DNA of 38,553 nt from NCBI RefSeq assembly GCF_003003075.1, contig NZ_PVTX01000017.1, positions 1-38,553 on the forward strand, in the 5' to 3' direction. The notes below the pieces were generated by a model. That model worked only from the letters and a program-made list of their open reading frames with translations, was not told the DNA's origin and ran no database searches. Below are positions 1 to 3,593 of this stretch, piece after piece. This DNA comes from Isoptericola halotolerans (GTDB taxonomy: Bacteria; Actinomycetota; Actinomycetes; Actinomycetales; Cellulomonadaceae). The position numbers and the translations under genes are program-made. Position 1 is the first letter of the stretch; the number at the start of each line of letters is the position of its first letter.

Positions 1-975
1 CTAGGTGTACTGACTCGGGACGTTGTTGATTCGGTCGATGGGGCGTAGGCCGCCGATGCCGGTGTGGGGTCGTTCCAGGTTGTAGTGGTCGAGCCAGATC
101 GGCAAGGCGCGGGCGCGCTCGGAGTTGGAGTCGTAGGCCCGGGCGTAGGCCCATTCGGTGGCCAGGGTCCGGTTGAGGCGTTCGGCCTTGCCGTTGGTCC
201 AGGGGCAGTGCGGCTTGATGAACTTCAACCGGATGCCCAGGCCGGCTGCGGCGTCGCGGAACGCGTGTGACTGGCGGTAGTTCTTCGCGTTGTCGCTCAA
301 GACCCGTTCGATGGTGATGCCGTGGGCGGCGTAGAACGCCGTGGCCCGGGCCAGGAACCCGGCGCAGGTCGTGCCCTTCTCATCGTCGTGGATCTCCGCG
401 TAGGCCAGCCGGGAGTGGTCATCGATCGCGGTATGGACGTAGTCGAACCCGAGCCCTCGCTTGCGGTGCGGGCGCTGCCCGCGCCCATGAACCTTCCACC
501 CGCCGCCATCGGGGATGCGGCCGAGCTTCTTGACGTCGATGTGCACCAGCGATCCCGGATGCGGGTGCTCGTAGCGGCGCGGCGTTCGCCGCGAGGCGCG
601 GATCACTTGCCCGGTGAGCGGGTCGCACTCGTGCAACAACGGCGTGTGGTGGCGGGCCAGAACACGCCCCACGGTGGAGGCTGGCACCCCGACCCGGCGA
701 GCCAGATCCACCGGACCACGGCGGGCCAGGTGCCGCCAGATCCGGATCCTGGCCTCAGTGCACGCGTGGGTGCGATGCGGGCACGAGCGCGGCCGTGAGG
801 AGCGATCCACCAGACCCGCCCGACCCTGCTGCTCGTAGCGGCGCCACCACCGCCACGCCGTGGTGCGCGAGACACCCATCTCAGCCGCGACGTGCGCCAC
901 CGGGCGACCTGCCGCGATCCGCCGGACCATCGTGAATCTTCCAGCAGGCGTCAGCCGGGCGTTAGCGTGGGACAC
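1..975 (-). CDS. IS481-family DDE transposase
   Basis: A 324-residue transposase that catalyses cut/join of the surrounding element. Residues 1-60 hold a helix-turn-helix (GVSRTTAWRWWRRYEQQG) followed by a second winged region. The RNase H-like integrase core follows, with the DDE residues visible as D147 (HIDVKK), D228 (LSDNAKNY) and E265 (GKAERLNRT), the usual IS481/rve layout. The start is GTG, preceded by GGAGG at a 6-base spacing. That ribosome-binding site lies in one arm of a perfect 12-bp inverted repeat. The TAG stop lies in the CTAG outside the inverted repeat, so it belongs to the target duplication rather than to the element. Length is normal for the family and no frameshift is seen. 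Confidence 0.93.
   Translation of the reverse strand: MSHANARLTPAGRFTMVRRIAAGRPVAHVAAEMGVSRTTAWRWWRRYEQQGRAGLVDRSSRPRSCPHRTHACTEARIRIWRHLARRGPVDLARRVGVPASTVGRVLARHHTPLLHECDPLTGQVIRASRRTPRRYEHPHPGSLVHIDVKKLGRIPDGGGWKVHGRGQRPHRKRGLGFDYVHTAIDDHSRLAYAEIHDDEKGTTCAGFLARATAFYAAHGITIERVLSDNAKNYRQSHAFRDAAAGLGIRLKFIKPHCPWTNGKAERLNRTLATEWAYARAYDSNSERARALPIWLDHYNLERPHTGIGGLRPIDRINNVPSQYT
6..30. repeat. IS left terminal inverted repeat
   Basis: It reads TGTACTGACTCGG inward and matches the right end (1068 back to 1044) at 21 of 25 positions. It also encodes the C-terminal residues of the transposase, so coding sequence runs through the repeat to the very end of the element. Confidence 0.85.
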
Positions 976-1039
976 GAGAGACCTCCGTTGGTACGAGCCG
1001 GGTTCCTAGACAGCTCCCACTCGACCCGGAGGTCTCTCG
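975..1039 (-). promoter_or_regulatory. Inverted repeat sequestering the transposase RBS
   Basis: CGAGAGACCTCC (975-986) and GGAGGTCTCTCG (1028-1039) form a perfect 12-bp inverted repeat separated by 41 bases. In a minus-strand transcript entering from outside the element, the distal arm would pair with the GGAGG ribosome-binding site and the first base of the GTG start. A transcript initiated inside the loop would lack the distal arm and leave the site free. IS10 and IS50 use this logic against read-through transcription; its use here is inference. Confidence 0.6.
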
Positions 1040-1043
1040 CTAT

Positions 1044-1068
1044 GTCAACAACCTGCCGGGTCAGTACA
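1044..1068. repeat. IS right terminal inverted repeat
   Basis: Read from 1068 inward it is TGTACTGACCCGG followed by GGTTGTTGAC. A TTGACA hexamer (1048-1043, minus strand) overlaps its inner edge and could be the -35 box of the transposase promoter. A convincing -10 is not evident: TCGAGT at an 18-bp spacer matches consensus only in part. Confidence 0.8.
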
Positions 1069-1070
1069 CC

Positions 1071-1076
1071 TAGGGT
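1071..1076 (+). promoter_or_regulatory. -10 element of glgC, rebuilt by IS target duplication
   Basis: TAGGGT ends 6 bases before the glgC ATG, the geometry of a leaderless promoter, which recurs five more times in this window. Its first four bases (TAGG) belong to the right copy of the IS target duplication CCTAGG. The insertion therefore kept the -10 element but replaced everything upstream, including any native -35 box, with IS sequence. No good -35 is visible 16-18 bases upstream inside the IS end. Confidence 0.55.
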
Positions 1077-1082
1077 CGGGGC

Positions 1083-2327
1083 ATGGCGTCGTCACATCCC
1101 CGGGTCCTGGCCATCGTCCTCGCCGGCGGAGAGGGCAAGCGACTCATGCCGCTCACTGCCCAGCGCGCCAAACCCGCCGTCCCGTTCGGCGGCATCTACC
1201 GGCTGGTCGACTTCGCCCTGTCGAACATCATCAACTCGCGCTACCTGCAGGTCATCGTGCTGACGCAGTACAAGTCGCACTCGCTGGACCGGCACATCTC
1301 CAAGACGTGGCGCATGTCCCCGCTGCTGGGCAACTACGTCTCGTCCGTCCCGGCGCAGCAGCGCGTCGGCAAGCACTGGTACCTCGGCTCGGCGGACGCG
1401 ATCTACCAGTGCCTGAACATCATCGACGACGAACGGCCCGACATCGTCGTCGTGGTCGGTGCCGACCACGTCTACCGGATGGACTTCTCGCAGATGGTCG
1501 ACGCGCACGTCGAGTCGGGCGCCCGCGCCACCGTCGCGGCGATCCGCCAGCCGATCGCGCTGGCGGACCAGTTCGGCGTCATCGACGTCGAGCCGGAGGA
1601 CCCGACGCGCATCCGCGACTTCCTCGAGAAGCCGGTGGCACCCGTCGGGCTGCCCGACTCCCCGCAGGAGGTGCTGGCCTCCATGGGCAACTACGTCTTC
1701 GACGCCGACGCCCTCGTCGAGGCGGTCACGAAGGACGCCGCCGATCCCGACTCCCGGCACGACATGGGCGGCGACATCGTCCCGGCCTTCGTCGAGGAGG
1801 GCACCGCCGGCGTGTACGACTTCATCCGCAACGAGGTCCCCGGTTCCACCGACCGGGACCGGGCGTACTGGCGTGACGTCGGGACGATCGACGCGTACTT
1901 CGACGCCAACAAGGACCTGATCGCGGTACAGCCGGTCTTCAACCTGTACAACGAGGACTGGCCGCTGTACACCGGCTACACCGGCCTGCCGCCGGCGAAG
2001 TTCGTCCACGCCGGCCCGGGGCGTCTCGGGCACGCGGCAGACTCGATCGTCTCACCAGGTGTCCTCGTCTCCGGCGCGACCGTCGCAGGGTCCATCCTGT
2101 CCCCGGGCGTGCACCTGCACTCCTGGGCGACGGTCACCGACTCCGTGGTGATGGACGGCGTCCAGGTGCACCGGCACGCCCAGGTGCACCGCGCCATCCT
2201 CGACAAGTTCGTGGTGGTGGACGAACGGGCCCGGATCGGCGTCGACCACGAGGAGGACCGGGCCCGGGGCTTCACCGTCACCGACTCGGGGATCACCGTC
2301 GTCCCGAAGGGTTCCCACGTTGCCTGA
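1083..2327 (+). CDS. glgC: Glucose-1-phosphate adenylyltransferase
   Basis: A 414-residue enzyme making ADP-glucose from glucose-1-phosphate and ATP, the first committed step of glycogen synthesis in the cytosol. The N-terminal nucleotidyltransferase domain shows [13 protein letters not shown] (about residues 13-25) with [10 protein letters not shown] following, and later FLEKP at the sugar-phosphate site. The C-terminal third is a left-handed beta-helix typical of GlgC. Length matches the family. No Shine-Dalgarno sequence lies between the IS and the ATG; the start instead follows a leaderless -10 element. The IS ends 9-14 bp upstream, so native transcriptional control is probably lost or altered. 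The stop overlaps the serB start, suggesting co-transcription. No glycogen synthase gene lies in the window. Confidence 0.96.
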
Positions 2328-3033
2328 GAGCGCCCCCGCCGCGCCCCGTCCCCGCCCGTCCGGCCCGCCGCGTCGTCGCCGGCTCGTCGTGACCGACGTC
2401 GACTCGACCTTCGTCACGCAGGAGGTCATCGAGCTCATCGCCGAGCACGCCGGCACCCGGCACGAGGTGGCCGCCGTGACCGAGCGCGCCATGCGGGGCG
2501 AGCTCGACTTCGCCGCCTCGCTGCGCGAACGCGTCGCCACCTTCGCCGGTGTGCCGGTGTCCGCGCTCGACGCGGTGCGCGAGGCGGTGGTCCTGATGCC
2601 CGGCGCCGCCGAGCTCACGGCCGAGGTCCAGCGCCGCGGGTGGGAGATCGGCCTCGTCTCGGGCGGGTTCGCCGAGATCCTGGCACCGCTCGCGGCATCG
2701 CTCGGGATCACCCGCTGGCGCGCGAACCGCCTGGAGGTGGCCGACGGCGTCCTCACCGGCCGGACCGTGGGCCCGGTCGTGGACCGTGCCGACAAGGAGG
2801 CCACCCTGCGCGAGTGGGCGGCCGAGCTGGACCTGGACATGGCCGACACCGTCGCGGTGGGCGACGGCGCCAACGACCTCGACATGATCCGCGCCGCCGG
2901 GATCGGCATCGCGTTCGCCGCGAAGCCGCTCGTGCGCGAGCAGGCGCCCTACCGGCTCGACGGGCCGCGGCTCGACGAGGTGCTGCGCGTGATCGACGAG
3001 GTCGACGCCGCCGCCCCGGCAGCCCGGGCCTAG
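2320..3033 (+). CDS. serB: Phosphoserine phosphatase (HAD superfamily)
   Basis: A 237-residue haloacid-dehalogenase hydrolase that removes phosphate from O-phosphoserine in the last step of serine synthesis. Visible motifs are motif I DVDST (nucleophile D26, acid D28), motif II LVSGGF, and motifs III/IV with K and GDGANDLDM. The SerB-type cap region lies between motifs I and II. There is no N-terminal ACT domain, so it is the short form; a proline/arginine-rich stretch precedes motif I. The TTG start at 2320 overlaps the glgC stop by 8 bases and has GAAGGG 8 bases upstream. The stop overlaps that of the convergent sixA gene at a shared CTAG. Confidence 0.9.
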
Positions 3034-3593
3034 CTCGGGCGGCCGACCCGCAGCAGCGTGGCCGACCGCTTGCCCCACTCCGACCACGGCTGCTTGGTGG
3101 CGTGCAGCACCGAGTAGGTCGCCGTCGGCACCCCGACACGGACCTGGGCCAGTGCGGCGTCGTCCGACGACTTGTCGGCGAGGTAGGCGGCGGTGGCCGC
3201 CATCGTGGGCTCGTGCCCGATGACCAGCAGCGTCCTGACCTCCGGGTCCACGTCCCTGACCAGCGCGAGCACGTCGGCGATGCTGGCCGCGTAGAGCTCG
3301 TCGCGCACCTCGGCGGCGAGGTGGTTGCGCTCGCCGTGGTTGCCCAGGTGGGCACGGGCGAGCTCCCAGGTCTGGCGGGTGCGCAGCGCGGAGGACACGA
3401 TCGTGAGGTCGGGAACCAGACCGGCCGCCGTCAGGGCCATCCCGACCCGGCCCGCCTGCTTGCGGCCGTTCAGCGCGAGCGCGCGATCCGCGTCGAGCAC
3501 GGCGCCCTTGCCGGGCTCGGCCTTGGCGTGCCGAAGCAGCACGAGCCGACGTCCCTTGTCCGGGACGTCGACCGCGTGCTTCGGCTGCTTCAC
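3030..3593 (-). CDS. sixA: SixA-like histidine phosphatase
   Basis: A 187-residue member of the histidine phosphatase (phosphoglycerate mutase-like) superfamily. The catalytic RHG-type motif is RHAKAEPG (H22), followed by TAxR-like SSALRTRQT and a late catalytic GHEPTM. Its small size and the RHAKA motif resemble SixA, which dephosphorylates phosphohistidine in signalling proteins; the true substrate here is unknown. I chose the GTG at 3593 because GAGG lies 4 bases upstream and it begins 10 bases after the fabI stop. An upstream extension would run into fabI in another frame. It is probably the last gene of the fabG-fabI-sixA operon, and it ends on a CTAG shared with serB. Confidence 0.85.
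   Translation of the reverse strand: MKQPKHAVDVPDKGRRLVLLRHAKAEPGKGAVLDADRALALNGRKQAGRVGMALTAAGLVPDLTIVSSALRTRQTWELARAHLGNHGERNHLAAEVRDELYAASIADVLALVRDVDPEVRTLLVIGHEPTMAATAAYLADKSSDDAALAQVRVGVPTATYSVLHATKQPWSEWGKRSATLLRVGRPS

Follow-up and report, generated by a model that had tools for sequence, protein, structure and literature searches.

What becomes of a gene whose promoter has been entered by a mobile element at the -10 box itself? The question is raised by a stretch of 38,553 nucleotides from Isoptericola halotolerans (NZ_PVTX01000017.1), called the window below, which is contig C17 from its first base in a genome of 3.85 Mb and 22 contigs. At its left end an insertion sequence stands immediately in front of glgC. 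An earlier note on this DNA had proposed that the insertion, at CTAG, preserved the -10 hexamer of glgC by target duplication and removed the native -35 and operators. The features concerned are the following.

1 to 5, no strand: left target copy, CTAGG of CCTAGG, its first base cut off by the contig end; the full copy and its flank lie on C15
1 to 975, minus strand: transposase, 324 aa, with a GTG start at 975 and the stop TAG at 3-1, inside the target copy
6 to 1068, minus strand: body of an IS481-family insertion sequence, 1063 bp, with ends TGTACTGAC (6-14) and GTCAGTACA (1060-1068)
975 to 1039, minus strand: inverted repeat with arms 975-987 and 1027-1039, over the transposase start and GGAGG; strong predicted hairpin
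1069 to 1074, no strand: right target copy CCTAGG, from sequence and empty sites
1071 to 1076, plus strand: TAGGGT, putative leaderless -10 box of glgC rebuilt by the duplication, 6 nt upstream of its ATG
1083 to 2327, plus strand: glgC, glucose-1-phosphate adenylyltransferase (PRK00844, 656.5 bits, cut-off 458; TIGR02091, 429.1, cut-off 424.9)
2320 to 3033, plus strand: serB, phosphoserine phosphatase, overlapping the end of glgC; sole serB match over cut-off in the genome

The element and its ends

The transposase matched the IS481-family profile NF033577 with 309.9 bits against a cut-off of 224, and the domains rve, rve_3 and HTH_28 all scored above their Pfam cut-offs, giving a DDE/rve integrase core and an N-terminal HTH; its catalytic residues are covered by these domain-level matches and not by a residue-by-residue alignment. 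The terminal inverted repeats start with TGT, and TGTACTGAC was found at both element ends. The element is an ordinary IS481-family member in an unusual, well-documented position. A point overlooked by the earlier note is that the left CTAG supplies the stop codon of the transposase, TAG at window 3-1.

The contig break inside the element presumably arose because the assembly broke at a repeated element. Four contig ends carry it, with right flanks on C17 and C10 and left flanks on C16 and C15, which means that the genome holds two copies. C15 ends in GAGGTCCTAGG followed directly by TGTACTGAC, and C17 has GTCAGTACA followed directly by CCTAGGGTC. Target words pair C15 with C17 (CCTAGG) and C16 with C10 (GCTAGG); it is these words, together with the relatives, that support the pairing, and not sequencing reads. 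Since the words of the two copies differ, the duplication is 6 bp, NCTAGN; the idea that CCTAGG is a fixed inverted repeat was rejected for the same reason, its first base differing between the two. The second copy (L003 on C16, L002 on C10) has entered the TAG stop of an ORF of 164 codons, and this stop is preserved by the duplication. We also noted that the inverted repeat at 975-1039 has a predicted RNA fold of -49.2 kcal/mol, with z -4.19 and none of 200 shuffles reaching that stability; such a hairpin could block transposase synthesis from transcripts entering from outside.

The target site is the glgC box

Two close relatives, 2 of the 5 loci listed, served for an empty-site comparison. 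Of the final 60 bases of the C15 flank, 57 are matched by L007 and 49 by L008, the alignment crossing the join without a gap, and both relatives read CCTAGGGTC at the target. The 500-base flanks aligned without gaps as well, at 89.4% (L007) and 86.8% (L008) on the left and at 93.2% and 93.0% on the right. This gap-free fit of the C15 and C17 flanks to the empty sites establishes the 6-bp CCTAGG duplication. Across window positions 1069-1082, where an empty site of different sequence would have spoken against the earlier proposal, L007 has the same 14 bases and L008 is one base off, outside the box. The proposed geometry was also confirmed: the right copy CCTAGG (1069-1074) runs into TAGGGT (1071-1076), six bases (1077-1082) follow, and the ATG stands at 1083. 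The same spacing had been ascribed to five other genes, and we indeed found TANNNT 6 nt before the start in 6 of the 40 called genes of the window, glgC included.

We then read 50 glgC loci (our own, 17 of the same genus and 32 of the same family; 218 of 220 genomes had a match). TANNNT lies 6-7 nt before the glgC ATG in all 50, and in 20 of them the word is CTAG. The choice of start favoured starts with a box, and all 50 chosen starts are an ATG at the conserved N terminus. This constancy indicates that the target was a conserved leaderless -10 box, and, judged from the empty sites and the conserved box together, the claim that insertion at CTAG kept the hexamer by rebuilding it through duplication stands. 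The promoter matters beyond glycogen because serB overlaps glgC and has no second match over the cut-off, although three weaker matches lie under it. serB adjoins glgC in 18 of 18 same-genus loci, our own included.

Leaderless promoters and the lost upstream region

In order to judge what was lost, it has to be considered what a leaderless promoter of this genus contains. Gene and promoter calls were computational, with a coding model trained on 312 ORFs of this genus and applied to others too. At coding-like starts, the gap between TANNNT and the start was 6 nt in 37 cases and 7 nt in 21 in the sample from our own genome, against 0-7 cases at each of the other gaps from 0 to 30; in genome G003 the figures were 48 at 6 nt, 21 at 7 nt and 0-10 at other gaps. 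Genome-wide, the pattern CTAGNNTN{6,7}RTG occurred 134 times, against 11 for N{9,10} and 74 for a reversed-pattern control which contains the common GATC. These distances agree with published work: the accessible parts of PMC3160421 and PMC3898074 place TANNNT of actinobacterial leaderless promoters about 12 bp before the start, as for the first T of the glgC box, and state that a conserved -35 was not found in M. tuberculosis. No link to IS targets is described in those parts of either paper (PMC3160421, PMC3898074).

In 117 leaderless promoters from our own genome and G003, no position between -45 and -1 carried more than 0.06 bits of information, and TTGACA was matched no better than at genomic positions picked at random. 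These sequences thus give no hint of a -35 that glgC could have lost, and the -10 box is probably what matters. The hybrid promoter matches TTGACA at 2 of 6 bases and the native site at 3 of 6, and if -35 contacts are important, the exchange of the upstream half could have an effect. That the element itself supplies a -35 box was not supported, the best TTGACA match being 2/6 at spacers of 16-19; wider spacers of 15-20 gave 4/6 at spacer 20, a match on which we do not rely.

The divergent glgA, on C15, has its own leaderless box, TACGTT, 7 nt before a GTG. Such a box was seen at glgA in 18 of 18 loci, in 2 of which it is TAGGTT, 6 nt before a GTG that gives glgA a longer N terminus. Across the genus both genes of the glgC-glgA pair are leaderless-looking, and in most loci their boxes lie close together. 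From its layout, the intergenic region looks like a compact shared control region. The short stretch between the two boxes stays with glgA, now about 1 kb off, and glgC retains its box and everything downstream. The statement that the native -35 and operators were removed therefore has to be divided: the 117 promoters give no evidence for a native -35, whereas the loss of a region common to the divergent glgA is borne out.

Related copies in other genomes

The arrangement of the transposase stop is not peculiar to this copy. Among 77 relatives that were fetched, 55 have the stop within the target copy, as TAG in 53 and as TAA in 2. The remaining 22 comprise six whose reading frame ends 15 bp within the element, eight for which no element end was matched, and eight that either run past the end or stop well ahead of it. 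Element ends were located in 76 related copies, of which the target words were identical in 62 and had one mismatch in 4, and the core CTAG was present on the right in 70 and on the left in 67. Outside Microbacterium lacticum, copies with at most one mismatch had CTAG on both sides in 31 of 31 cases. We observed three targets other than CTAG, namely GTTAGA, CCTAAC and GCTAAG (L063, L070 and L087), in which TAG or TAA is retained at the place that the transposase needs for its stop. For L064, L076 and L116 the left and right target copies are unequal, which points to recombination among the M. lacticum copies of the element.

Among these relatives we found further copies in putative leaderless promoters. 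A copy in M. lacticum DSM 20427 (L107, 2390-2406) lies in the -10 box of metG (TAGAAT, 6 nt, GTG), the gene being the single match over the cut-off in that genome. Methionyl-tRNA synthetase, the product of metG, is essential. As metG is thus presumably essential here, the rebuilt box, or a different promoter contributed by the element, must be enough for its expression. All 29 loci read, that of M. lacticum among them, have the metG box, with CTAG in 22 (30 loci were fetched from 59 genomes, and one without a start was dropped). A second M. lacticum copy (L081, 3471-3487) lies in the mdh box with its transposase end facing mdh, so that the TAG at 3473-3475 is both the transposase stop and the start of the mdh -10 box. 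The mdh box was present in 30 of 30 loci, M. lacticum included, and carried CTAG in 2 of them, so CTAG at this place was not ancestral to the genus. For metG and mdh the relatives were compared at the box and the start only.

In Cellulomonas sp. B6 (L099, 2391-3497), leaderless starts were observed on the outer sides of both target copies, TAGGCT-6-ATG and TAGGGT-7-ATG. This arrangement suggests, from the sequence, that one palindromic CTAG was common to two divergent genes before the insertion. A search of 60 genomes for its empty site did not find one: matches came from 10 genomes and were strong in 4 (its own included), one strong match gave no start, and the loci read had no comparable start and box.

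What drives glgC

On the reading that we prefer, with a probability of roughly 80%, a CTAG-inserting IS481-family element with a 6-bp NCTAGN duplication landed in the leaderless -10 box of glgC, CCTAGGGT-N6-ATG, and the duplication left a complete TAGGGT at its normal distance from the ATG. The copy at the other end supplies the transposase stop, and the glgC-glgA intergenic region has stayed with glgA; these three points are seen in the sequence. The rebuilt -10 box most likely still starts a leaderless glgC-serB transcript, because leaderless promoters of the genus have no detectable -35 signal, and this transcript would lack the lost upstream regulation.

Two other outcomes have to be weighed against this. 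The insertion might have silenced glgC-serB, the -10 box being present in a promoter that is dead without its upstream part, in a cell that tolerates the absence of glycogen and has another source of serine. Removal of the region common to glgA and glgC would fit such an outcome, and the three weaker serB matches could substitute for the lost enzyme; however, serB has no second match over the cut-off, leaderless promoters here carry no -35 information, and in M. lacticum a related copy lies in an equivalent site before the sole metG that passes the cut-off. We therefore consider silencing unlikely. Still less likely is that most glgC transcription starts at an outward promoter within the element and gives a leadered mRNA, as with IS481 upstream of katA in Bordetella, where an outward promoter was reported (DeShazer 1994, cited in the part of PMC3053399 available to us). 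Such promoters are thus known in the family, and besides the rebuilt box the element has one outward TANNNT, at 963, which by its sequence could also serve glgC; but the transposase reads away from glgC and no other outward TANNNT is present. The proposal in the earlier note that transcripts from the element might drive glgC is accordingly improbable as the main source, and the rebuilt leaderless box is preferred.

CTAG in the genome and the steering of insertions

CTAG had been described as rare in GC-rich genomes and as tied to -10 boxes, and both points were upheld. Our own genome has 54 sites in 325 kb against 778 expected from base composition, and 50 in a fresh 400 kb against 957; sites derived from the element, and with them the glgC site, were removed from these counts. 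The depletion is milder against the trinucleotide expectation (63 seen, element-derived sites included, against 207). Outside called genes, which is 11% of the sequence, lie 37 of the 54 and 39 of the 50 sites. By strict criteria CTAG forms a leaderless -10 box in 18/54 sites, in 11/50 of the fresh sample and in 13/66 of G003, far more often than at the control gaps of 3, 4, 9 and 10 (0 and 2 in our own samples, 1 in G003). In total, 29 of 104 own sites are leaderless -10 boxes, 16 are stop codons of coding-like ORFs, and 43 are either. The word is not unique as a -10 word, since enrichment counted by strand position was 32/258 for CTAG, 11/146 for ATAG and 7/66 for TTAG. As the values for ATAG and TTAG are near that of CTAG, the cause lies in scarce TAG-bearing words and TAGNNT boxes and not in CTAG as such.

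The earlier note had further expected an element targeting CTAG to be steered to promoters, and a genome-wide check of its copies had been proposed. We counted related insertions in strict leaderless -10 boxes: in M. lacticum 4/33, against 5/46 other CTAGs in the flanks, and elsewhere 3/31, against 8/48 background CTAGs; summed, 7/64 insertions against 13/94 CTAGs, with our own two copies excluded. For M. lacticum, the stricter set (at most one target mismatch, CTAGs near other copies removed) reduced 35 distinct insertions and 50 background CTAGs to 33 and 46 and left the -10 counts of 4 and 5 unchanged. The expectation holds in that CTAG often stands at -10 boxes; the steering is passive, at the background rate of CTAG. 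An active preference for promoters beyond the word itself, for example for open DNA at -10 boxes, could point to those 7 of 64 insertions and to 1 of our 2 own copies, but it is not supported by these counts in either set, and it is stop codons that exceed the background, in one of the two sets. We regard active preference as very improbable. At stop codons lay 7/33 insertions in M. lacticum against 4/46 (p=0.19) and 16/31 elsewhere against 9/48 (p=0.003, one of six tests), and the latter excess would fit the retention of harmless insertions. Called genes of M. lacticum held 11/35 insertions against 6/50 background CTAGs (p=0.05, with a gene model that left 32% of the flanks uncovered), and hence the idea that CTAG insertions spare genes was not borne out by that test.

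Taken together, CTAG is scarce in genes and many of its sites are TAG-bearing -10 boxes or stops that duplication regenerates, so that, as we infer from the census, the choice of target would lower the cost to the host. We lean somewhat towards the more general view that IS481 elements of the CTAG type use a self-repairing target, in which the duplicated TAG ends the transposase and also restores a host stop codon or leaderless -10 box. About 40% of sampled CTAGs of our own genome (43/104) are such signals, the word is scarce inside genes of GC-rich Actinobacteria, and entry would be permitted even into the metG promoter, with its core restored and its upstream regulation cut. Collectively, the core claim of the earlier note is upheld, and it gains in generality through the census and the metG case, promoter activity being predicted. 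Accounts of the target specificity of insertion sequences usually stop at the sequence. In the present case a scarce target word falls together with host signals which duplication regenerates, and this would explain in a simple way how such elements come to sit in the promoters of important genes. A further prediction is that GC-rich bacteria carry natural promoter swaps, in which the -10 box and start codon are kept and the upstream region is new. On such natural alleles it can be tested directly what a leaderless promoter requires in addition to its -10 box.

Comparison with known systems

In 1993 Fournier reportedly described IS870 as needing a CTAG target in order to generate the stop codon of its large ORF. 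IS870 is an Agrobacterium element that lies outside the IS481 family; it differs from our element in this respect and shares with it the stop generated by CTAG. A transposase stop supplied by the target is already known within the IS481 family as well. According to the available part of PMC2516522, ISLxc2/ISLxx4 of Leifsonia xyli belong to this family, duplicate NCTAGN and have the transposase stop inside the host target, all of which is shared with the present element; a role of the target in a promoter is not described in that part. ISRe46/TnRErm46 of Rhodococcus equi likewise uses a CTAG target, where the TAG of one repeat ends the transposase and that of the other can end parB, so that on the host side a stop codon is regenerated and not a -10 box (PMC6794481, as far as its accessible text goes). 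An insertion sequence that rebuilds a leaderless -10 box was not found in the open-licence literature searched. In E. coli, CTAG is scarce in the genome and preferred in the 100 bp upstream of genes, as in our census; in the available part of PMC1166578 these are taken as repressor sites, whereas here about one quarter of the sampled sites are leaderless -10 boxes. Further counterparts are IS481 and IS1002 of Bordetella, which form an NCTAGN group (Stibitz 1998, as cited in the accessible part of PMC3053399). The Bordetella IS481 resembles the present element in transposase family, 6-bp NCTAGN duplication and size (1,043 bp there, 1,063 bp here), and its effects on the host, so far as the same text describes them, are outward promoters (PMC3053399), whereas in front of glgC it is the duplication that appears to rebuild a -10 box of the host.
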